DNA of 64,000 nt from contig NC_061061.1 in the NCBI RefSeq assembly GCF_021917145.1, positions 9,185,390 to 9,249,389 on the forward strand, given 5' to 3'. The DNA comes from Hypomesus transpacificus. Lineage: Eukaryota; Chordata; Actinopteri; Osmeriformes; Osmeridae. Each line of letters opens with the position of its first letter. Within the stretch, counting starts at the first letter, position 1. The notes under the pieces were generated by a model. It saw nothing but the letters and a program-made list of their open reading frames with translations, made no database searches and was not told the origin of the DNA. A program made the position numbers and the translations under genes. This document shows positions 1-62,699 of the stretch, in pieces.

Positions 1-147
1 GGAAAGTTCCCAACCCCTCACAAGACAATTGTTCTCACAACATCATCCATTTCATTATACAGTAACATTGTCATGATGGTGTGCGTTTGAGATTTCTTAA
101 TTGCTGAAGTAAAACAACTAAACGTCAAAACGTGTTTGTTCTTCCAG

Positions 148-2323
148 ACCGTCAGATTCGCCAGCGTGCCTGCGCTCTGAAGGACACAGTCCACGCCATC
201 ATCCGAGACGAGCTGGACGAAGACTTTGAGAAGATCTGTGAAGACATCAAGGAGTCACGCAGCACAAGAGGTGAGTGTGCTTCGTGTTCCCCGTCTGGAA
301 AGACCCTCAATACGCTTTCTCAGCTGTGGAGTAAAGGTAGCCTAGACCATTTCAACAAAACTGTCATTAAATGTTTAGTAAATGCACCCCTAAGGAGTCT
401 GTGTCTCAAAAACGTCCCTGAGACAGCCTCCTCTGTGTTCCCTGTAGGCTGCTCAAAGTCAAGGTTCGCTCCATCCTACTACCATGTCCTGCCCAGACAG
501 CCCCAGGCAGTGGAGCCCCCCACCGCTGAGGCTGCCCCTCCCAGAGATCTGCCACAGGCCTCTCTTGCAGTCGCCAGCACTCCTCGACACCCAGGTCACC
601 ACCTACTGATGCCCCTGGGAATACCGGCAATACAGAACTACAACACCCAATATCACTAATCAACCTGATATCTAGCTATGTGTTATTTGTATTTGGCTGT
701 GGTTCTTTAGGTCCCTTTTTAGAGGGGTATGGTACATTAGGAAGATGCTTCCTTCTTTTTCAGTCCCGTACGAGAGGTTGCAATCCTAACTGGTTCATTC
801 AAATTCCTTGCGTCTTGTTCCACTGTTTCTCAAAGTGGCTTGTTCCCACAGCAGCCTATAGGAGGAAGAGGAGGAAGGGCCGCTGGTGCAACGGCTACCT
901 GACCAGGAAGAAGGCTTCTCCTCACGCGTCCAAAGACGACTCAAACCTGCCTGACTCTGGGGAAGACGAGGAGGAGGAGGAAGAGGAGACTGACGGAAAA
1001 GTGATGGAGAGTGAGGAGGGTGAAGAGCAGGACACAGAGGGATTTAATGCTGAGCATGCCCAGACGGAGCAGGAGATCCAGCCAATGGAGGAGGAGGAGG
1101 CTGGGGAGATGGCCACTCGGGAACCTGCAGAGAGGGACAAAGCAAACAGCCATGCGCCAGGGGAGGGGGGAGACGGGAACAGCCAGGCTGCAGTAAAAGG
1201 GGGAGAGCAGACCAGCCAGGCGTCGTTGGAAGGGGGAGAAAGGAACAGCCAAGTGTCAACGAAGGGTAGAGACCAGAGGAGCTGTTCCCCCTCTGAAGCG
1301 GGAGACCAGAAGCTCCATGGCCCAGTAGAGGTAGGGGATCAAAGCAGCCAGGGCCCGTCAGACGAAGGAGAACAAGGCCAGAAGTCCACCACTCAGATCA
1401 CCGAAGCTGAGACACTAAAGCCAGCTGTGGAGGAGGAGGCTAGTACAGGTTAGTGCTAAAACATAACCACTGCCGAGTCACCAAGTGCTTTGCTTGTGCC
1501 AGGAATGCTGCTGGCTAAGTGCTGTTTGTTAATATATTCATGGGCTCCAGTAAGTCCCGTTTTTTTGTATCATGTCTCAGAGAAGGGCACAAGGCGTATG
1601 ACCCGTGGCCTGAAGAGCCAAGTTCTGCAACAGCAGATGATCGATGTGGACAAAGCCCTGGAGATCCTGGACCAGAAGATACCTCCACTCGTCGTGGACA
1701 GAGATAAGCTTAAGGTGAAATATCGCTGCCATGCTTCTCAAGCAAGGAACATTACCCATTCACATAAATCAGCCTCTGCTGTGTGGTCAGTTGGTATAGA
1801 AGCCGCTTTCTTGTGTTTCAGGAGCTGCTACTGAGAGTGGTTTCGAAAACAGAGGGCTATGAGGTCTATCAGCTAGAGAAGCTATACGCTCTGCTGTCTC
1901 AGAGCATCTACAGACACCGCAGAGACTATGACAAGACCAGTCTCCTACAGGTTGGTTGTTTATTCAGTTTTTCTACCTTCTTTTCCTAATAGTCTGGACA
2001 TGTTGACATCAGATCTAAAACAGGCATGTAATCAACATACAGGATATCTGAATGTGTATGGACAGCTGTGGTTCACAGCTAATAATGAAGAACGCTATCT
2101 GCAGTTTCCAATTGTCCACTTACATTAACATAAAAATGTAGATGTGAGATGAGATTTTAATTAAACATTCAAAGAGCCCCAATTAAGACCTCACATCTTT
2201 TTTTCTTGTATGAAACCACCAAATTGTATTATTTGTTTCAAATAATTTCATTTGTGTTTACGCATTTTGGCCTCTATTGTGTCTTTCTAGGAGATGGAGA
2301 AAGAAATTGAAGATTTTTGCTAG
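148..2323 (+). CDS. atad2: ATAD2, 3' part (C-terminal six coding exons)
   Basis: ATAD2 is a nuclear AAA+ ATPase with a bromodomain that reads acetylated histones. Only the C-terminal end lies in the window; the ATPase and most of the bromodomain lie to the left. Coding exons read as 148-270, 448-594, 852-1448, 1581-1714, 1822-1950 and 2291-2323 (TAG), and all join in frame at GT/AG sites. The first exon holds the last bromodomain helix and linker (RQRACALKDTVHAIIRDELD). The second has the conserved APSYYHV motif. The third is a long acidic, Glu-rich, poorly conserved exon. The last three give the conserved tail (TRGLKSQ, YEVYQLEKLYALLSQ, IYRHRRDYDKTSL). The tail supports ATAD2, and the position beside zhx1 matches human synteny. 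The third exon contains degenerate repeats of about 14 residues built around GGE/GDQ-SQ. The exon model comes from splice consensus and homology, not transcripts. Confidence 0.93.
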
Positions 2324-2549: not shown

Positions 2550-3965
2550 CCTGTGTTGCTGACTTGTATGAAGAGGATTCTGAGGCTGAGACAGACATGA
2601 TATGTCAGATATATGTCTGATCAAGCAGTGTGACTAAAAATAACCCAATCTTCACCAGCAACAAGCCTGTTGATGAATTATGTCGGGCTTTGCTTTTACA
2701 GACCGAATGCCCGTGGATATGGCTGTGCTTGTGAATGTTTCTTTCTGGAGTTAATTAATTTTTCACTAAAGGGATCAAAATGGAGGCAGCTAAGCCTTTT
2801 GAAATAAAGTTGAAGTGGCCCAGTACTAATTTTTGTAATATGTCTCTTCACTCCTGAAAAGGAAAAGTGGCGTGGACATATTTTGAAATTGAAAGCGGCA
2901 TGTTGTCAGGTCACGTGAGGTCTGCTACTTTGCACTGTCAAATAAATTATACCACGAACTCAATCGAGTCGTATGTCAAGGTTGCGTATTACAGGAACAT
3001 GAAACATGATTTTACACATTAGACTTTGATTTTGTCCACTGCAGAGTCGCTGTGGAATGACGTCAAGACGTATCACATTGAATGATGACGCCGTTTCATC
3101 ATTAAAACTGCCATTAAAAAGAAATGAAATTCAGGTTTGTTGATACATTGCATGACTACATGTGACAGACTTAGTTCACCTTTGGAGCTGGTTGGTGTTT
3201 CAACAAGTTTGTTAAGCCGTAATAGTTAGAAAGTAACTGTTGAGCTAGGGAGAATGTCAAATTCGAGCATCTGCAGACAGAGGTAGACTGGATTCGGCTG
3301 ACTCCCCTCCACGCACTGTCTCGGAAGACCCGCTAGCCTGCGAGTACTGCAGTCCGGCCAGGCGCGTCATGCCGAGGGCTCGCTAACCGCAGACCAGAAC
3401 ACATTTAAGACGTTCGCCCCCATTGTTGCTGTAAGCTATGCTTGTTTTAATAAGTTAGCTAGCTGTTGAGCTATCTTGCTATCAGACCAACGTTAACGTT
3501 ACCTGACTGCATAGAGTGGCAGACAGTGCACCTATGGTGCTATGAAACAGTACTGCTAGCATTTTGGATAAGCTAACTATAGCTAGCTAGTAGGTATGTA
3601 TTGTACAGTAAGCATACCTATTGCTGTATCGTTTTACAGTATAATGGTTGATAAGACAATGTGATGAGTTTTATTAAACTATAAACTGTAGACAACTGAC
3701 AAGTTTACATTTACAAGTTGAGTACACAGTGCAATAAATAATTTTATATCACTGTCACTGTAAAAACAATGCTTTAAACAGATATCAAAAGGATGACATT
3801 CCACAGTTGTATCTCAGAAGTAATACAGATGGAACTGATCTTGCATTTGCTCTCATGTGTTTCAGCAGGAACATGAAGATGTGAATCCAACCATCTGCTG
3901 CGCAAAGACCCAAGTTGGAGGCTAAGTAGATTCTTCTTCTCTCAGTTTCCCAACGAGTGTGAGCA
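2550..3965 (+). promoter_or_regulatory. atad2-zhx1 intergenic region: putative zhx1 promoter and 5' UTR exons
   Basis: No ORF with homology is seen. A perfect CRE palindrome, TGACGTCA, lies at 3058-3065, followed by a more GC-rich, CpG-containing stretch (about 3290-3430). A possible 5' UTR exon ends at a GTAAGC donor near 3432. A matching acceptor (GTGTTTCAG) ends near 3866, about 100 bp before the zhx1 start codon. Mammalian ZHX genes also have non-coding first exons. The exact start site cannot be read from sequence alone. Confidence 0.45.
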
Positions 3966-6665
3966 ATGTCCAGCAGGAGGAAGTCAACCACACCCTGCAT
4001 GTTGCTGCCATCTGATGTGGAGGAGCAAGAGGACCCAGACATGGAGGTGAGCGAGGAGAGTGTTGGAGGTACGGATGGCTCCTCTGAGAAACCTGCTGAA
4101 GCCCTTGGTCCAGCTGAACCTGACGCAGGTGAGGAATTAGATTATCAATATTTGCTCTTAGTGGACAACATAAAATAAACATAACACTAGTCCATATTCT
4201 GATAACTAGTATCTCTTGTTCTCTGATTGAACTCAAAGCCTCTTTTCATTCCATGTGTATTTTCAGAGCATGACACCAGTCTACCTGAGGGGGAGGACAG
4301 TGTCAATTTTGGAGCAGTCAGACGTAGCAACCATTCAGAGGAGTCCATCAGTGACCTCATTATGGATGGGGGGTTTGTTGAGCCGGATGCTGATGGTAGC
4401 GAAGACCCAACCGTAGCTGCAATTTCCCTCAGCAAGACTCCCATCATGAAGATGAAGAGCAAATCCGAATCCAAGAGGATTGCGCTGTCTCTGAAAGCGG
4501 CGGAGGAGAGTGATGGCGTCGGGGAGAGTGAGGGAGAGCAGGAACCGATTGAAGCGCCTCTGGGCTCCCTCACGCCGGCAGAGCTGATGAGTCCGCTGCT
4601 ACATGCCGAGGCACTAAAACCTGGCCTTTTGCTTAACTTCCCCACCAGCGCTGACCACAAGCAGAAATCCGTGCTGAACTCAGCCTCGATGCTGCCAGCG
4701 GGCCTTGCCCAGGTGCTGTCAGCCCTGCAGGCGCAGCAGAGCGCTGCCCAGGCCCAACTCCTCATCCCTCTGAGCAGCATCCCCTCCTACAACGCAGCCA
4801 TGGACACCAACACTCTACTGGTCAACACTTACAAGAGGTTCCCTTACCCCTCGATGGCAGAGATCCTTGGTCTGGCCTCCCAGACTAAGTTCAGTGAAGA
4901 GCAGATCAAGATCTGGTTCTCGGCCCAGCGGCTGAAACATGGAGTGAGCTGGACCCCAGAGGAAGTGGAGGATGCTAGGAGGAAGCAGTTTAATGGCACG
5001 GTGCATACAGTACCCCAGACCATTACAGTCATCCCAGCGCACCATCTCTCTGCAGCAGCCAACGGCCTTCAGTCCATCCTCCAGACCTGCCAGATCGTGG
5101 GCCAGCCAGGCCTGGTGTTCACCCAGGTGGGCACCACCAGTAGCTTGCCTGTCACCACCCCCATCACCTTGACAGTGGCTGGGGTCCCCAACCAGAGCCA
5201 TACCCCTAAGGCCTGCTCAAGCCAAACTAGCCCAGCAGGTAGTGAGTTGAAGAGGGCTACCACAGTCCAGCCCCCTTCTCTGACCCCCCAGGAGAACTCT
5301 GCCCTCAGCGCCGACCATTTCGGGATGCGACCCAAGAAGTCGAAGGAGCAGTTGGCGGAGCTGAAGGCCAGCTACCTTCGCAACCACTTTGCCAGTGACG
5401 CTGAGATTGCCCGTCTGATGAAGCTGACCAACCTGACAAAGGGGGAGATTAAGAAGTGGTTCAGCGACACACGCTACAACCAGCGCAACTCCAAGAACAG
5501 CCACGTCATTGTGTTCCACGACGGCAACCGAGGCGGTGGAGGTGGCAACGCCACCATCGTCATTGACTCCAGTGATGAGACTCCTCAGTCCCCTCCCCCC
5601 GCAATTCTGCCACCGGTCAAGGAGACACGACCCAAAACCTGGAACCCCTTCCCAGACTTCACCTTGCAGAAGTTCAAGGAAAAGACTCCAGAGCAGCTGG
5701 TGGTCCTGGAGGAAAGCTACCAGAAGTGCGACATGCCCTCCGACGAGGAGCTGAGCCGACTGAGGACGGAGACCAAGCTGACACGGCGAGAGATCGATGC
5801 CTGGTTCACGGAGAAAAGGAAGACCCTAGCTCCCTCGGCAGCTGCTGCCCCTGAGTCCCCTGAACCAGGTGGCGAGCAGATGGATCAAGAAGCAGCAGGC
5901 ACCTCTCCCTCATCCTCGAGGAAGGGCTGTCAGACCCCACCGGGTGGCAGGCGAGCCAGCAGGGACAAGGTGGTGAAAAAGAGCCCTGAGCAGCTCCACG
6001 TCCTGAAGAGCACCTTCGTCCGGACCCAGTGGCCCTCAGCCGAGGACTACGACAGGCTCGCCAAGGAGAGTGGCCTGCCCAGGTCCTACATCGTCAACTG
6101 GTTCGGAGACTCGCGGTACGCATGGAAGAACGGGAACCTCAAGTGGTTCTTCTTTTACCAAAGCGGCAACGTGGAGGGCATCAACGGCAACAAGAACAGG
6201 AAGCGGCGGGTCCGGAACCGCGGCTGGGGACGTTCCCGGAGCAGGAGGGCCAAAAGGTCCGCTGGCGTGGAGAAGTCCCCACCTGTCAAGTTTAAGACAG
6301 GCAGGGACATCCTGAAGGAGTACTATCTCAAGCACAAGTACCTGAACGAGCAGGACCTGGACGAGCTGGTGGCCAAGTCCAACATGGGATATGAGCAGGT
6401 GAGAGAGTGGTTTGCCGAGGTCCAGCGACGGGAGGACATGGGGACGGACCCGTTTGAGGGAGCTGCTGAGAACGATGAGCAGGAGGGAGGGGAGGACCGA
6501 GAGGGGAGGGAGGGGGCAGAGCTAGCACCCGAAGAGCAAAGCAGCACAGTGGTGGAAGAGGAGGAGGATGATGAAGAGGATGATGAAGATGACACTGATG
6601 ATAGCGAGGCCTGGGAGCCTTCTCGGGGGGTCCGGAGGTCAATGTCGGGCCCAGAGGACCAGTGA
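3966..6665 (+). CDS. zhx1: ZHX1, zinc-fingers-and-homeoboxes protein 1, lacking the zinc fingers
   Basis: ZHX1 is a nuclear transcriptional repressor that dimerises with ZHX2/ZHX3 and NF-YA. Two coding exons join in frame: 3966-4128 (starts MSSRRKSTTPCM, the family N-terminus) and 4267-6665, giving about 853 residues (human 873). Five homeodomains are visible, each with a WF pair in helix 3: about residues 235-295, 411-470, 524-580, 624-685 and 728-785. An Arg/Lys-rich segment that looks like a nuclear localisation signal lies between the last two. The C-terminus is highly acidic. The segment after the splice (EHDTSLPEGED) aligns with the second histidine-bearing half of zinc finger 2 in relatives. 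Neither CxxC pair of the usual two C2H2 fingers exists in the exons or in the 138-bp intron. Orthology is clear from the homeodomains, such as WTPEEVEDARRKQFNG and TVHTVPQTITVIP, and from synteny. Confidence 0.95.
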
Positions 6666-8662
6666 TGGTCAGATGATCCCAGAAGTCCAACAGCACAACA
6701 CAAAGTAACCAACAGACTGACAATAATCTGTGTCTTTTAAGGGGCACCAACTGAATAGGTCCCTGGTGTACCCACACAAAACATGCACCTTTTACACTTA
6801 GTGTTGTGTAGATGTATTTGTTTGTCTTGCTAATACTACCAGTTGTTACACAGAGAGTGGACATGACAAGATCAGATGTTTTAATATTGGAAAGGATCTA
6901 GTTCGTTATGGCTAATGAAAAATTTAAAAACCTTGATTTAATCACCACATGTATGTATGTGCATAGAAGTTATATATGTTAACTTCTCTATGTCAGTGAA
7001 AGACAGTAAAAACCTTCTAGTGAATCATTTGGAACATGATGAGGATGTTCCGTTGGAAGTTATGGGATGCAAGGAACGGCTGTGCCAAAGTAAATTGAAT
7101 GTGTTGGTATCTGTGCTACAGATGAGCTGGTAGCCGGAGGTCCAGCGTAGCATGGCCTCTTTGGGTGAATTGACATTTGTAGTACAGACAGACGTGCACT
7201 TTTGACTCATCACTTGATAAACGTGTTGTGGAATCAAATCTTGATTGGGCACCTTAGATCTCTCACACCATTAAATGGCTGTGAGAGACCAGATCTGTTT
7301 TCTCTGAACTAACCAGTATTTTGCCTTTTTTTAGTCCTCTGATTGTAAGTTCAAGAGGATGAACCACACTGACTGCCCCTGTTGATGTTTCAAATACAAG
7401 TCCAGAACGGATATTCATTCAGCACAATAGATCATTATTAACTAGCCTAGCAGCTTTTAACAACATTTAACTATTAACATTGTAGCAGTGTCCACATTTA
7501 TAAAGCTTTGCTGCCTTGAAAGTTTGCATGAATTTTGCATTCATTTAGCATTTTTTACAAAATAAGCTTTATGCAAGTTCAAAAGAGTAAGCTTCAAATG
7601 TTTTCTAATTTATGTCCAAATGCATGTTTGTGTTATAACATTGCTTTTATTTTGTCCATGTGCAGAGGGCTCTCTTTGACACTTATTGCAATCTAAATAC
7701 CAGTTTACTTTGTATCATTTTCTTTAGTCAGCTTTTTCCACTTCTGTAAGCTGTCCTAAATGTCCTAAAAGCCTGTTGGATTGCTGCCTGCTAAACGGTT
7801 GAATATATTAATGAGGTAAAGACTGGATATCAACCTTTGGCCTGAGATCTAAAGCTAAATTAAGCCTGGCTCATTAAAGTGAGCTCAAGTAAACTGTGGA
7901 ACAGATTCTTATCTGAGATGATTCACCAAATACTGTGGTCTTACCACCACTCTGACCCTGACATCCAACTGAGGGATGGTTTCAGCACCTTTTGAAGAGA
8001 CACACCTCTGTGCCTGACAGTACTACACATGGCTCATTCATTTTTTAGGGGGAATTTAACGATAAGCACTGGGAGGAAAGAATGCCTTCTGCTCAAAACG
8101 TTTTGATGTTTTGCATGAGCGTCGAGCATATAAGGTGCTTGTGTGCATTTGCTCAAAAGTTTGCATGTACGCTTACTTATATACTAAAGTATATATCGAT
8201 AGAGATGTCTATGGCCCTGTCTGAATTCTCTGAAAATGCATCTTTCCTACCGACCTTTTATGTTAGAATAGGTTATCCCACATCTTTCTCTACACAACAG
8301 TTTTCTAATATCAATGTACAATTAGGGTTCTGTTTAAGCAAGGGAGATATGAGGTTGCATTTTAGAGAATTTTTATGGGTCTGTCAATTCCCCATGAAGT
8401 TGAATTTGAGACTCCATGCCCTTAATTCTATAGTGCATGCAATAATCAAAACAGGAGCTGATTTTGTAAATATAATATTTGATGTATTTGTATTAAGTAG
8501 CCCCCATTTTGTATGTTTCTATTTATGATCATGATGAATCCTGTCTTAAGTGTATGACATTGATTTAAATGTACAGGTTTTTGAAATGGATAAAGTTTTA
8601 GAGCGTAGTCCTTTTGCAGTGTTCCCTGTGGCTTTGTGTTACACACCTGTCAGCAACACTAT
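6666..8662 (+). other. Probable zhx1 3' UTR, proximal part
   Basis: AT-rich sequence with no credible coding potential; the short ORFs here match nothing I recognise. I see no AATAAA between the zhx1 stop and the Harbinger element, so the transcript probably runs on to the signal near 10494. This is inferred from the motif search and from the absence of another gene start. Confidence 0.45.
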
Positions 8663-9953
8663 GGCTGGGTTGCACCAACATGGATTAAATTAATCCTGGT
8701 TTAGAGTTAATCTAGGGTTAGTAAATCTATGTTTAAACTGGTTTATAATTAATCAGAGATGTGTTGCACATCTTAATTTTAACCCTGGATTAGCTAAACT
8801 AGTTTAAACAAGGGTTAAAACGGGATTAGTTTATGTTCAATGTCCGCCATGATGGATTCCGACGAAATGTAAACAAATTCACAACGTATGTTTAACATAT
8901 ATGGAACTAAATAGCCTTAAATGAATGAATGCACTCTTTCCTAAACTAGCTGCTATTTTGCCTGGGTCTCAGAGTTCAAAAGTGGAGTCATCAGGTATGG
9001 GCGACATGCATAGCCATTGTCCCCCACTTGATGTCCACGGATCTCCCCTCTCTCCAGCAGTGCACAAAGTTGACTGTTGTCAAAGATTCGGCTGTCATGT
9101 GTGGATCCTGGCCATATTGCAACAATGTGTGTGATCTGGGCCTGGTCATCACACACAACTTGGACATTAATTGAGCAGTAGCCCTTTCGATTCCGAAACA
9201 GCTCCCCAGTCTCACCACCTGGGTTGGTAATGGGAATGTAGGTGCAGTCGATAGCCCCAATTACTCCTGGAAAACCTGCTCTCCCATAGAATCCAGCTGT
9301 TGTCTCTCTCCTTGGTACAAAGGGAATGTACTGAGCCTTTAAACTTGCAATTGCCTTGGACACTCTGCTGACAATTCTGCAGACTGTGGATTTATGAACT
9401 CCGAAAAGATCTCCATCAACCATCTGAAAACTCCCTGTAGCATAAAATCGCAAAGCAACTAGGAGCTGGAGAAGCGGTGGCACAGCAAAATTCCTCTCAC
9501 TTCCATGCTTGATTGCTGGTCCAACCTTCCCATTTAGGTATATGACAGACTCTTTTGTAAATCTATACCGCTGTGAAAACTTGCTGTTGTCATAGAATTC
9601 AATTGGGTTTAGCCTAACTCTAATTTTCCTGCGAGGAACTCTTTCGTCTAACCCCATTCAGTGAAGATATGCAGCCATGTTGTCAATAAAACTGAGATAA
9701 ACCTCCTCCAGGGGTGGTTTAAATATAACAGCTAATCCAGGTTTAGACTAGGTTTAAAAGGACTGGTGCAACAGATTTAAATTTAATCTAGATTTAAATG
9801 GAAATTAAACAGAGATTGTCAAAGGGTTAGATTTACCCAGGATTAATTGTTAACCAAGGTTAAACTAGGTTTAAAGTTTGGTGCAACTGGATAAAAATAC
9901 AAACCTGGTTTAAACTCAATTTAAGAGTTAATCCTTGTTGGTGCAACCCAGCC
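8663..9953 (-). mobile_element. PIF/Harbinger DNA transposon, partly degenerate
   Basis: Terminal inverted repeats GGCTGGGTTGCACCAACA (left) and its exact reverse complement (right) bound 1,291 bp. They are flanked by a 3-bp direct repeat TAT, a length typical of PIF/Harbinger. Both subterminal regions are packed with short GTTTAAAC / GGATTAA-type motifs in both orientations, usual transposase-binding architecture. The element encodes a truncated HARBI1-like nuclease on the minus strand. No Myb-like DNA-binding partner ORF is present, so it is non-autonomous. It appears to sit inside the zhx1 3' UTR. The intact 18-bp inverted ends suggest a fairly recent insertion. Confidence 0.9.
8953..9657 (-). 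pseudogene. Truncated HARBI1-like transposase (DDE_4 nuclease)
   Basis: An ORF of 234 codons with the PIF/Harbinger nuclease fold. It has a helix-turn-helix-like segment (FGVHKSTVCRIVSRVSKAI), the first catalytic Asp in GAIDCTYIPI (about residue 137), the PGSTHDSRIF motif (about 187) and the second catalytic Asp in GDNGYACRPYLMTP (about 213). It stops shortly after this, at SETQAK. The C-terminal helix that carries the catalytic Glu in intact family members (an IER/VERAFG-type segment) is absent, and I cannot find it in another frame downstream. Upstream in frame, a TGA separates a short MAAYLH stretch from the start methionine and may replace a Trp codon. It is therefore probably inactive as a transposase. 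Confidence 0.88.
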
Positions 9954-34164: not shown

Positions 34165-36627
34165 TCAGCCAGTCACCCTTCCAGGGTGGTCCACAGCCAG
34201 TACCTCTGCCTCTGGGCCTAGCCGTTGCATGTCAAGACCTTTCCCCTCCTCACCCACAGCCATGGTCACTTTCACCCACCTCCCCCGGTCAATGGCGGCC
34301 TGCCCAGGCTGGTCTCGGGCACGACTCAGGTCAGACATGCTCTGTCCCAGCTTGTTGGTGAACCACTGGACTATATCCTTGTTGGAAACTGGCTGGAGTT
34401 TTGAACACTCAGGCATCTTGTCCGCATCTTCCTCCAACTTCAAGACTTTGGCTGGGGAAGGTTGGAGAACGCTCTGGGTCTTCTCTGTGACTGCTAAGGA
34501 GCTCTGGCTGTTTTGAGCTTTGCTGTTCAGGTTCTGGAACTGTTCCATCCACTCCAAGGTTCCGTTTTTCAGCGCTGAACGGTTGTCCTTGAACCATCGG
34601 ACTATATCAATGCGAGCCAGGCCTGTTTGGACCTCCAGATGGTTGTACTCCTCGGGTGAAGGCCACTGTGTCTGTGTAAAGACCTCTTTGAGGAGGCCTA
34701 GTGATTTGCTGTCTATGGGTTCAGGGCTAGTGGAGGCTAAGAGGAGAGGGAGGGGGAGAGGCAGAGAGGAGGATTGGATCTTGCCATCCTGCTGCTCATG
34801 AACACCGTTCTGCACCCCTCGATAATCCTCTGGGATTTTGGGACCCATCGAGTTCAGCAGGGCTTGCTCCAAGTTATCCCTCAATGCCCTTCGCTCCAAA
34901 AACCAGCAGTCAATCTCAGTTTTGGAGAGCCTACTGTTCTCCACCAGCTGGTCCACCTCAGCCTCTGTGGGCGAGCTGCTCCTCTGAAAGCTCTCCTCCA
35001 ATGTCTTGAGCTGCTCAGACGACTTGCCTTTGACCCTCTCCAGGAGAGGAAAGTGCGTGGGGATCGTTATTTTGGGCAGAGCGTCTTTAGAGGGGAGCTC
35101 GCTCTTCACCTGGGGGGCACTTTTGAGGTTGAGCAGACGCTGCTCGCTGAACCACTTCTTGATTTCCCCCCTGGAGAGACCGGTGGTCTCGATGAGGCGG
35201 TACACCTCCTCCTCCTCTGGGAACTGGCACTGCGTGTAACTAGCCTTCAGCACGGCTAACTGGTCAGGGGTCTTGTTCGAGTCTGCTGTGAAGACAAACT
35301 TTGGGGGGACAATCTTGGGGGCGGTCTGAACGGTTTGGATTATAGAGGGACGTTTGATCTCTGTCCCGACAACGACAGGGGACGCCAGTGGACGTTTGAC
35401 AGACTGTGCAACCTGATTGGCCAGAGTTAAGGCTATGGGAGCACAGGTGACAGTTGAACCATTAGTCACTTGTGTCAGAACTAAGCTGGTCTGCCCCAGA
35501 ACTTGGCAAGGGATGGTCTGAAGGAGGGAGTGGGGCGATTTGGTGGACTGAGGGGTAAGCTGGGCGGGCAGTACAGTGAACGTATGAGGAACTGACTGGA
35601 TGGTACCATTGAACATCTTCTTCCTGGCCTCTTCCACCTCCTCAGGGGACCAGCTTATGCCCTGCTTCAGCCTCTGGGTGGTGAACCACACCTTGATCTG
35701 CTCCTCTGGGTGTTTGGAGGCGGCAGTCAGCCAGGAAAGCTCTGCCTGGGTCGGGTAGGGGAACTTGTTAAAGGAGGTGATGAGAGTCAGGTTACCATCC
35801 AAGGAAGGGTTGTATTTGGATGTGTTTAAAGGAACAGCGATTTTTGGTACCAAGTTGTAGTTGGGGGGTCGCTGTAGAGATGGCATGATGTGAGAGAGAC
35901 CATCTTTGAGAGTGGCCTCGGGGATGATTACGGTTCCGTTCACGTTCAGAGCCGTGATCTGCTTTTTACTCAGCTCCGGGGTCAGTTTTCCCAGCTGGCT
36001 TTCTGGCAATGTCCGTTTGTTGTCCGTTTTTGACTTGCCAATCTTCACGGTGGTGGACCTGCTCAGAGGAAAGGTGGCAATGTCTGCTCTGGACACGGCA
36101 CCACTGGTGTTGTAGATGACTGCATTGCTGGAACCTTCTATTGTCTGCTCTAATATGGTCTGGTTGTTCAGTTTGACCCTCTTGAACTTGAAGTTGCTTT
36201 CACCAGGATGAAACCTCTCATTGTGCTCTGTCAGGGTGTCAAACTTCTTGGTGTTGAAGTTGCAGACTGCGCATAGGTAGAGAGGGTTGAGGATGACGTT
36301 TGGGTGATTGGCATCCACGTGCTCTTTGAACTCGTTGATGTTCTGGGTCGAGAAGGGGCAGTACTTGCACTCATAGCCTCCTCCTTGATGCTTTCTTTGT
36401 GGGGGCTTTGGGTCTGTCTCTGGCCTCTCCAGTGCTGGAGAAAGCTGTGGTGGGCAACTGGGCTCCACGACTGGGGGCTGCATCTCACTGGGAATGTCCA
36501 TCTGAGGCGGCCCCTCCTCAGCAGGACTGTCCCTAGACGCCTCCATCTCATCCTGCTCTGGAGCCCCCTGGTCCAGAGCATTGGGCCGGATCATACAGGG
36601 GGTGGTGGACTTCCTCCGGCTGGACAT
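34165..36627 (-). CDS. zhx2: ZHX2, zinc-fingers-and-homeoboxes protein 2
   Basis: ZHX2 is a nuclear transcriptional repressor, known in mammals as the alpha-fetoprotein regulator Afr1. The whole coding region is one exon of 820 codons, as in mammals (human 837). The N-terminus MSSRRKSTTPCMIRP is shared with zhx1. Two C2H2 zinc fingers are intact: C87/C90/H103/H108 (YECKYC...) and C119/C122/H135/H140 (YLCAVC...). Four homeodomains follow, with helix-3 WF motifs in IKVWFTTQRLKQG, EIKKWFSEQRLL, EIDCWFLERRAL and DIVRWFKDNRSALKNG. ZHX2-specific blocks such as WLTAASKHPEEQIKVWF and ARKKMFNGTIQSVPHTFTVL separate it from ZHX1/3. Near the C-terminus KDIVQWFTNKLGQSM looks like the remnant third helix of a fifth homeodomain. 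Non-coding 5' exons probably lie to the right of 36640. Confidence 0.97.
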   Translation of the reverse strand: MSSRRKSTTPCMIRPNALDQGAPEQDEMEASRDSPAEEGPPQMDIPSEMQPPVVEPSCPPQLSPALERPETDPKPPQRKHQGGGYECKYCPFSTQNINEFKEHVDANHPNVILNPLYLCAVCNFNTKKFDTLTEHNERFHPGESNFKFKRVKLNNQTILEQTIEGSSNAVIYNTSGAVSRADIATFPLSRSTTVKIGKSKTDNKRTLPESQLGKLTPELSKKQITALNVNGTVIIPEATLKDGLSHIMPSLQRPPNYNLVPKIAVPLNTSKYNPSLDGNLTLITSFNKFPYPTQAELSWLTAASKHPEEQIKVWFTTQRLKQGISWSPEEVEEARKKMFNGTIQSVPHTFTVLPAQLTPQSTKSPHSLLQTIPCQVLGQTSLVLTQVTNGSTVTCAPIALTLANQVAQSVKRPLASPVVVGTEIKRPSIIQTVQTAPKIVPPKFVFTADSNKTPDQLAVLKASYTQCQFPEEEEVYRLIETTGLSRGEIKKWFSEQRLLNLKSAPQVKSELPSKDALPKITIPTHFPLLERVKGKSSEQLKTLEESFQRSSSPTEAEVDQLVENSRLSKTEIDCWFLERRALRDNLEQALLNSMGPKIPEDYRGVQNGVHEQQDGKIQSSSLPLPLPLLLASTSPEPIDSKSLGLLKEVFTQTQWPSPEEYNHLEVQTGLARIDIVRWFKDNRSALKNGTLEWMEQFQNLNSKAQNSQSSLAVTEKTQSVLQPSPAKVLKLEEDADKMPECSKLQPVSNKDIVQWFTNKLGQSMSDLSRARDQPGQAAIDRGRWVKVTMAVGEEGKGLDMQRLGPEAEVLAVDHPGRVTG

Positions 36628-61484: not shown

Positions 61485-62223
61485 TAGCCTGGCTGCCAGC
61501 CCGATTTAGCCCCGCCCACAAAAATAATTGGTCGGGAAGTTGGGTCTGGAGGTAGCCTGACGTTGTCATACTCATAATTCTAGTCAGAATATGAGTCTGA
61601 GAACTCTCCGTTGGGCTTTGACTACAGGGCGTGTTTCAAACGAGCCTGGAAAACAAATGCCTCTTCACTTAATTGGATAGATCTACAACCAATCAGAGCA
61701 ACAGAGTATGTGACGTATGTTAAGCACCAGTTATCAACAGAACTAAACTACAAGCAGACTTGAAGTATGCTTGAAGAATGAATACAAACGATTTTTGCCT
61801 GTGTTGTAAAATTAATTTAAGGGTAGGGAGAGTACTTGTTCACACGGTTAACCTTTTTGAGCGAAACAATAAAGGGCAATGCATATACGAAGTTCTCCGT
61901 TTAGGATTACAACTCCATCGGGGCCAGCTGATAAATTAAACTTTTACCGAATCCCGTAGGAAGGACGGCAAAAACATATTTTCCATCGACAAATGCCTTG
62001 ATTGCGTCTCTCTGTTCCTCTTTCAAAATTAATGCGCTGTATCATAGTATCATAACATCCCAGATCTCCAGCGGTAGCCATGTTGGGCTCCAGCGGTAGC
62101 CAATTGAGCGAAGAGGCATTTGTTTTACGAGTTCGGTTGAAACACGCCCCGTAGTCACAGCCCAACGGAGAGTTATCAGATTTATATTCTGACTAGAATT
62201 ATGAGTATGACAATGTCAGGCTA
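61485..62223. mobile_element. DNA transposon with long TIRs and 9-bp TSD, carrying a helicase fragment
   Basis: Inserted in the LINE reverse-transcriptase region. An exact 9-bp direct repeat AAATAATCC flanks it (61476-61484 and 62224-62232), and precise excision would restore LINE sequence continuity. The ends are TAGCCTGGC and GTCAGGCTA. From 61553 a long inverted repeat of more than 100 bp (TAGCCTGACGTTGTCATACT onward) pairs with 62110-62223. A 9-bp duplication with long TIRs is characteristic of Mutator-like elements, which are known to carry host gene pieces. No transposase is seen. The superfamily is an inference. Confidence 0.75.
61907..62032 (-). pseudogene. RecQ/DEAD-like helicase Walker A fragment inside the transposon
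   Basis: In one minus-strand frame, 41 codons run without stop and read LILKEEQRDAIKAFVDGKYV followed by FAVLPTGFGKSLIYQLAPME. This has the Q-motif-like EEQRDAI and the Walker A P-loop TGFGKS typical of RecQ-like SF2 helicases. It ends at TAA (61907-61909). An ATG at 62081 opens a different frame (MATAGDLGCYDT) that runs through the same DNA out of phase, suggesting a small indel between a start exon and the helicase segment. Helicase motifs II-VI are absent. It is a captured or vestigial fragment. Confidence 0.75.
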
Positions 62224-62699
62224 AAATAATCCCATTCCAGTTGGTCAAATGCTTTTTCTGCATCTAAAGACACCACCGCACACGGTGACTCAATATCCCG
62301 AGCTGCATGGATGATATGTAGCAGTCGGCGCATGTTGTCTGATTCTGAACAAGACTTTATGAAGCCTGTCTGGTCCTGATGTATAAGTTTGGTAATGTAT
62401 AAATCTACCCGTGTGGCTAGCACTCTGCCAAATACCTTTATTTCTGTGTTTAAGATAGAAAGGGGTCCATAGTTGATACACAATATGGGGTCCTTGTTGG
62501 GGTTTGGTAGCACTACTATTATGGCTGAGTTAGCATCATTAAAGAAGGAGCCTTGTTTGATTGATGAGTAAATCATATCCCAAAATAGCTGGCCAAGTAC
62601 ATCCCAGAATTTTATATAAAACTCAGGGGGAATCCCATTCAAACCAGGCTATTTTCATTTTTTCATGCCAGAGATGGCTTCAAATAAATCAGAAAGCAT

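Follow-up and report, generated by a model that had tools for sequence, protein, structure and literature searches.

A zhx1 paralogue of Hypomesus transpacificus with an intron in place of its zinc-finger-coding stretch

In human and in the other mammals the coding region of ZHX1 is contained in one exon. The human protein (chains 2ghf, 2ly9, 2ecb and 3nar) has two C2H2 zinc fingers, homeodomains and an acidic C-terminus, and ATAD2 is the neighbour of its gene. It has been reported that mammalian ZHX1 dimerises via the homeodomain 1 region and represses via the acidic C-terminal region (PMC9570228), and that the gene order ATAD2-ZHX1-ZHX2 is found in both salmon and human (PMC2846915). Within the ZHX/HOMEZ group, HOMEZ is described as lacking zinc fingers (PMC2211742). 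Two lines of work on the origin of introns are also relevant here: the intronization of coding sequence observed in human retrogenes, mostly without frameshift (PMC3565874), and the introns of the MC2R, MC5R and P2Y genes, which were gained in unbroken coding exons of ray-finned fish with compact genomes (PMC3151243). Among titles and abstract openings in the literature, we found no fingerless ZHX1 from fish.

The gene analysed here, which we call zhx1a, shares with human ZHX1 the homeodomains, the neighbouring ATAD2 and the acidic C-terminus, but it has no C2H2 fingers and an intron lies inside its coding region. It is fingerless as HOMEZ is, and both belong to the same group; however, HOMEZ forms a separate clade, whereas the homeodomains of zhx1a are of the ZHX1 type and the start MSSRRKSTTPCM is kept. 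Like those of MC2R, MC5R and P2Y, its intron was probably gained in a ray-finned fish, within a coding exon that had been unbroken, but it stands in place of a domain, while those introns are not known to have come with domain loss. The closest comparison is offered by a sister paralogue in the same genome, zhx1b, which has the same neighbour and homeodomains equally conserved, but keeps both fingers in one open coding exon, where zhx1a has neither the fingers nor the unbroken exon.

The window, that is, the whole stretch of 64,000 nucleotides under analysis (G000:C2:9185390-9249389), contains no N bases, and the genome searched amounts to 437 Mb in 376 contigs. The features of the locus are collected in Table 1. 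The ATG of zhx1a is at position 3966, the donor at the end of exon 1 reads CAG/GTGAGG and the two exons together give 853 codons, in frame and with no internal stop. When 16 joins around the exon ends were tried, the only in-frame GT-AG one was 4128/4267, and the 138-bp intron that the first-pass annotation had placed there is therefore borne out. By a simple consensus score over positions 3966-6660, the donor was the best of 118 GT sites, and the acceptor came ninth of 281 AG sites; the GT sites at 6399 and 4047 ranked 2 and 3 as donors by the same score and, thus, further splice forms of zhx1a are possible. That zhx1a is spliced in this way in the cell is a prediction from the DNA.

Table 1. 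Features of the zhx1a locus and of the genes compared with it; positions are those of the window except in the last row
Feature	Position	Strand	Remarks
atad2 3' exons	140..1937	+	matches at 140-238, 1627-1717, 1819-1937; neighbour of zhx1a
Candidate 5' untranslated part of zhx1a exon 1	3866..3965	+	candidate acceptor tttcag ending at 3865; read from sequence, splice-scored
zhx1a coding exon 1	3966..4128	+	54 codons plus 1 base; starts MSSRRKSTTPCM; N-terminus common to zhx2, zhx1b and both zhx3-type copies
Conserved N-terminal 12-mer of zhx1a	3966..4001	+	from 5 aligned genes of this genome
zhx1a intron in place of finger-coding stretch	4129..4266	+	138 bases, 32% GC
zhx1a coding exon 2	4267..6665	+	five homeodomain stretches, acidic C-terminus
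Finger 2 remnant from first His, plus C-terminal extension, decayed	4267..4364	+	alignment to relatives
Homeodomain 2 (by position)	5310..5510	+	matches human ZHX1 chain 2ly9
Homeodomain 3	5646..5834	+	matches human ZHX1 chain 2ecb
Homeodomain 4	5940..6170	+	matches human ZHX1 chain 3nar
zhx2	34168..36627	-	one open coding exon; fingers at 36304-36369 and 36208-36273
C18 zhx3-type introns (G000:C18:12847001-12857000)	5185-5277, 5389-5522, 7290-7427, 8253-8505		AG/GT at both junctions, 4/4

The ZHX architecture consists of two N-terminal C2H2 fingers and four or five homeodomains. Of these elements, zhx1a has five homeodomain stretches (Pfam, E-value limit 1) and no fingers. In fact, a six-frame scan for the C2H2 pattern found none before position 8500 of the window, with both zhx2 fingers recovered as a positive control; none of the five cysteines of the spliced zhx1a protein stands in a C-x(2-5)-C pair; and Pfam gave no finger match in either exon, the ZHX finger model matching zhx2 at E 7.5e-18. 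The claims of the first-pass annotation that zhx1 is without both fingers and that the zhx2 of the same window keeps them therefore hold. Its statement that no CxxC occurs in the exons or upstream stands for the spliced protein, but has to be amended for the upstream DNA, in which ECEQCP is readable at 3955-3972 in another frame, without forming a finger.

Of the fingers, the only remnant found in zhx1a is the terminal part of finger 2 with the tail that follows. The opening of exon 2, EHDTSLPEGED, aligns to the end of human ZHX1 finger 2 and the tail with a score of 41; with the human chain 0 of 5000 shuffles reached the score, and with zhx2 the proportion was 0.0006. The identification of this peptide as the end of finger 2, already proposed from the letters, is confirmed. 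In a tblastn comparison with the whole window, the zhx2 fingers recovered their own gene and matched the exon-2 tail at E 3.9, and the many other lines were noise; one noise line, at E 0.001, was considered as a finger remnant and rejected, having a stop inside and lying at the far end of the neighbourhood of zhx2. A genome search with the zhx1b fingers gave E values of 4e-8 or lower in four genes; the ten remaining places had E of at least 0.036.

The sister gene zhx1b lies at G000:C4:1880234-1883161 and encodes 975 residues in one open coding frame; both fingers are present, as judged by PF18387 (E 1.2e-21) and by the human ZHX1 double finger 2ghf (E 4e-45). When the genome was queried with the N-terminus of zhx2, the matches were zhx2 and one other place, on the same contig C4. 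A finger-keeping second zhx1, which it had been suggested to look for, is thus found; the species keeps a finger-bearing ZHX1 and the case of zhx1a is more ordinary than the first-pass annotation suggests. A second atad2 precedes zhx1b, and all three of the exon peptides tested match the atad2 of the window with 67-79% identity. The order ATAD2-ZHX1-ZHX2 is also observed in the window, with the atad2 exons upstream of zhx1a and with zhx2 in the position given in Table 1. From these neighbourhoods and from the tree described below, zhx1a and zhx1b most likely descend as a pair from the teleost genome duplication.

The family was surveyed by searching the genome with exon 2 of zhx1a, which gave 15 matches at seven loci, counts to be read as lower bounds. 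The loci, at least seven, are zhx1a, zhx1b, zhx2, two zhx3-type genes (contigs C9 and C18) and two HOMEZ-type genes (contigs C10 and C89). Among the 21 genome-wide matches to PF18387 listed with E up to 10, four passed the cut-off, in zhx1b, zhx2 and both zhx3-type genes, and none of the four is at zhx1a; fingers are therefore kept in four of the five ZHX1-3-type genes found, zhx1a alone being without. In the two HOMEZ-type genes no fingers were found by plus-strand pattern scan, tblastn or Pfam. In a tree of the seven family members, zhx1a and zhx1b are sisters (99/100), with branches of 0.37 and 0.39, and the two HOMEZ-type genes are split from the five ZHX-type genes at 100/98, a value to be read with a long-branch warning on the HOMEZ pair; a grouping of zhx1a with the HOMEZ homeodomains is not seen. 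The assignment of zhx1a to ZHX1 rests on the gene order in the window, on its position as sister of zhx1b and on the best three of its 15 listed solved relatives, which are human ZHX1 homeodomain chains.

As zhx1b, zhx2 and the C9 zhx3-type gene each have one open coding exon, the intron of zhx1a is likely new. The origin that we favour, with a confidence somewhat above an even chance, is that the finger-coding DNA itself turned into intron: most likely, new splice sites came to flank the finger-coding stretch, which would have ceased coding and become intron, and the excised finger DNA would then have decayed and shrunk. Three points favour such a conversion. The intron stands exactly at the lost finger segment; at the codon boundary of the acceptor, the ACA GAG CAC of zhx2 gives AG, while the CTG GAG CAC of zhx1b does not; and at the donor site zhx1b has CAG GCG where zhx1a has CAG/GTG.

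A second possible origin, which we hold with limited confidence, starts from the deletion put forward by the first-pass annotation: the fingers would have been deleted, and the junction, repaired with unrelated filler, would have become an intron. Indeed, the overall resemblance of the intron to finger-coding DNA is not significant, either in comparison with the linker-finger stretch of zhx1b (p 0.23 for the global alignment, 0.48 for the local one and 0.45 for the 3' end) or with the finger DNA of zhx2, where an equal score was reached in 203 of 500 shuffles; moreover, the intron, with 138 bases, is shorter than the matching stretch of zhx1b, which has 199, and intron gain is reported in compact fish genomes, where it is linked to break repair (PMC3151243). 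However, the filler would have to carry good splice signals, and at its 5' end the intron weakly resembles the linker of zhx1b (p 0.034, uncorrected). A mobile intron was also considered and rejected: in a search of the genome that skips very common words, the intron DNA matched one place, itself, and no second copy was found.

It is rather unlikely that the intron was inserted without coding loss and that the fingers were removed by a separate deletion. Insertions of this kind seem to occur in the ZHX family, judging from the C18 zhx3-type gene, which has four apparent coding introns that are absent from the single-frame C9 copy and that show no visible coding loss. On the other hand, the junction of the zhx1a intron, CAG/gt...cag/AG, is unlike the AG/GT of the C18 introns and this, together with the absence of coding loss in the latter, indicates that the zhx1a intron is different in kind; furthermore, two independent events would not require that it be sited exactly at the lost segment. 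A tandem-duplication origin of the C18 introns was tried and rejected, the expected similarity being present at just one of the four flanks (p 0.019). The first C18 intron, of 93 bases, is stop-free and could be coding.

The stretch that follows the lost finger has changed selectively. The finger-2 tail of zhx1a is identical to the human one at 11 of 35 positions, against 28 of 35 for zhx1b (Fisher p 9e-5), and between the two sisters its dN is 0.51, with a dS beyond the computation of the method. The tails of the two zhx3-type copies, which have their fingers, are also poor (13/35 and 9/35), so that tail decay alone is no proof of finger loss. A title by Wienk et al. reportedly mentions that the human ZHX double finger is extended at its C-terminus; with the finger gone, the tail would lose its partner. 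These data, from the one genome compared, suggest that zhx1a probably lost its fingers long ago, and that their absence is not due to a fault of assembly. A fault of assembly or annotation, by which fingers that exist would be missing from zhx1a, is conceivable in that the structure is known here from assembled DNA alone, but we regard it as very improbable: the window is free of N, the GT-AG intron is clean and in frame, and a decayed tail is not what would be expected from a gap.

The homeodomains present a different picture. In the comparison of zhx1a with zhx1b, dN/dS for homeodomains 1-4 is about 0.09-0.20, with dS near saturation (0.7-1.2), and the differences by codon position are 40/24/102 across 262 codons. 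Homeodomains 2-4 of the two genes are equally close to human ZHX1, with 138 of 187 residues identical to the human chains in zhx1a and 134 of 187 in zhx1b. Of the five homeodomains under strong constraint that had been claimed, five are present as Pfam stretches at the limit mentioned above, and the constraint applies to the first four. That zhx1a is a dying pseudogene, with the finger loss as one among several lesions, would fit with the keeping of the full architecture by zhx1b but is scarcely credible in view of the 853-codon open frame, of this dN/dS and codon-position pattern and of homeodomains 2-4 as near to human as those of the sister.

Taken as a whole, the comparison points to zhx1a as probably an old, paralogue-specific loss of a domain, and we think it quite likely that the gene is an expressed, paralogue-specific fingerless zhx1. 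The structure of the gene, the absence of its fingers, their presence in the sister, the selective change of the finger-2 tail and the constraint on homeodomains 1-4 are well supported as DNA; splicing in cells, the duplication, the sequence of events and the function of the protein are predictions.

The N-terminus of the protein is well preserved. In the five aligned ZHX genes (zhx1a, zhx1b, zhx2 and the two zhx3-type) the first 12 residues have M-x-S-x-R-K-S-T-x-P-C-M invariant, and the RRKSTTP of zhx1a has the same spacing as the NuRD-binding motif RRKQxxP, in which an R, the K and the P are reported to be essential for docking in ZNF512B (PMC11602157). By analogy, ZHX proteins might dock a corepressor through RRKSTTP. 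In the literature we found no paper joining ZHX3, NuRD and RBBP4; ZHX2 and NuRD occur together in 10 papers, and 'ZHX' is not mentioned in the main text of the ZNF512B paper.

The homeodomain 1 region and the acidic C-terminus are both present in the sequence of zhx1a. The 853-residue product would be a homeodomain-only ZHX1 which, by analogy to mammals, would retain dimerisation via homeodomain 1 and repression via the acidic C-terminus; docking of a corepressor may also persist at its N-terminal peptide, which is unchanged. The product would be without finger-mediated contact, a role left to zhx1b, zhx2 and the zhx3 copies. The likely function of zhx1a would then be that of a homeodomain-only ZHX1 that pairs with its relatives and makes no finger contacts, and its partner or DNA contacts may be altered, as the first reading of the DNA had suggested.

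In zhx1a the functions of the ZHX1 fingers may have been separated naturally from those of the homeodomains, the finger-bearing sister in the same genome serving as a control, and the comparison of the two genes would offer a direct route to what the ZHX fingers do. In addition, zhx1a is a candidate vertebrate case of domain loss through exon-to-intron conversion. A wider reading can be proposed only tentatively, and we consider it rather doubtful: after the genome duplication, a whole DNA- or protein-binding domain would have been removed from a transcription factor by an exon-to-intron change, giving a homeodomain-only ZHX1 that would serve as a natural modulator by pairing with the ZHX proteins that bear fingers, and that would be common to a broad teleost group.

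Some further observations were made on the other genes and on the rest of the window. Four Pfam homeodomain stretches, not five, are found in zhx2, and its C-terminal end looks unusual. The C9 zhx3-type gene (G000:C9:7730001-7740000, 3939-6653) keeps its fingers, but at E 0.001 Pfam recognises a single homeodomain stretch in it; its branch in the tree is long (1.5) and its homeodomains look degenerate. Two mobile-element fragments lie on the minus strand of the window: a DDE_Tnp_4 transposase fragment at 8956-9657 (Pfam E 1.2e-19), which we take to be Harbinger-like, and a reverse transcriptase fragment at 62202-62648 (PF00078, E 3.4e-9), presumably LINE-like.
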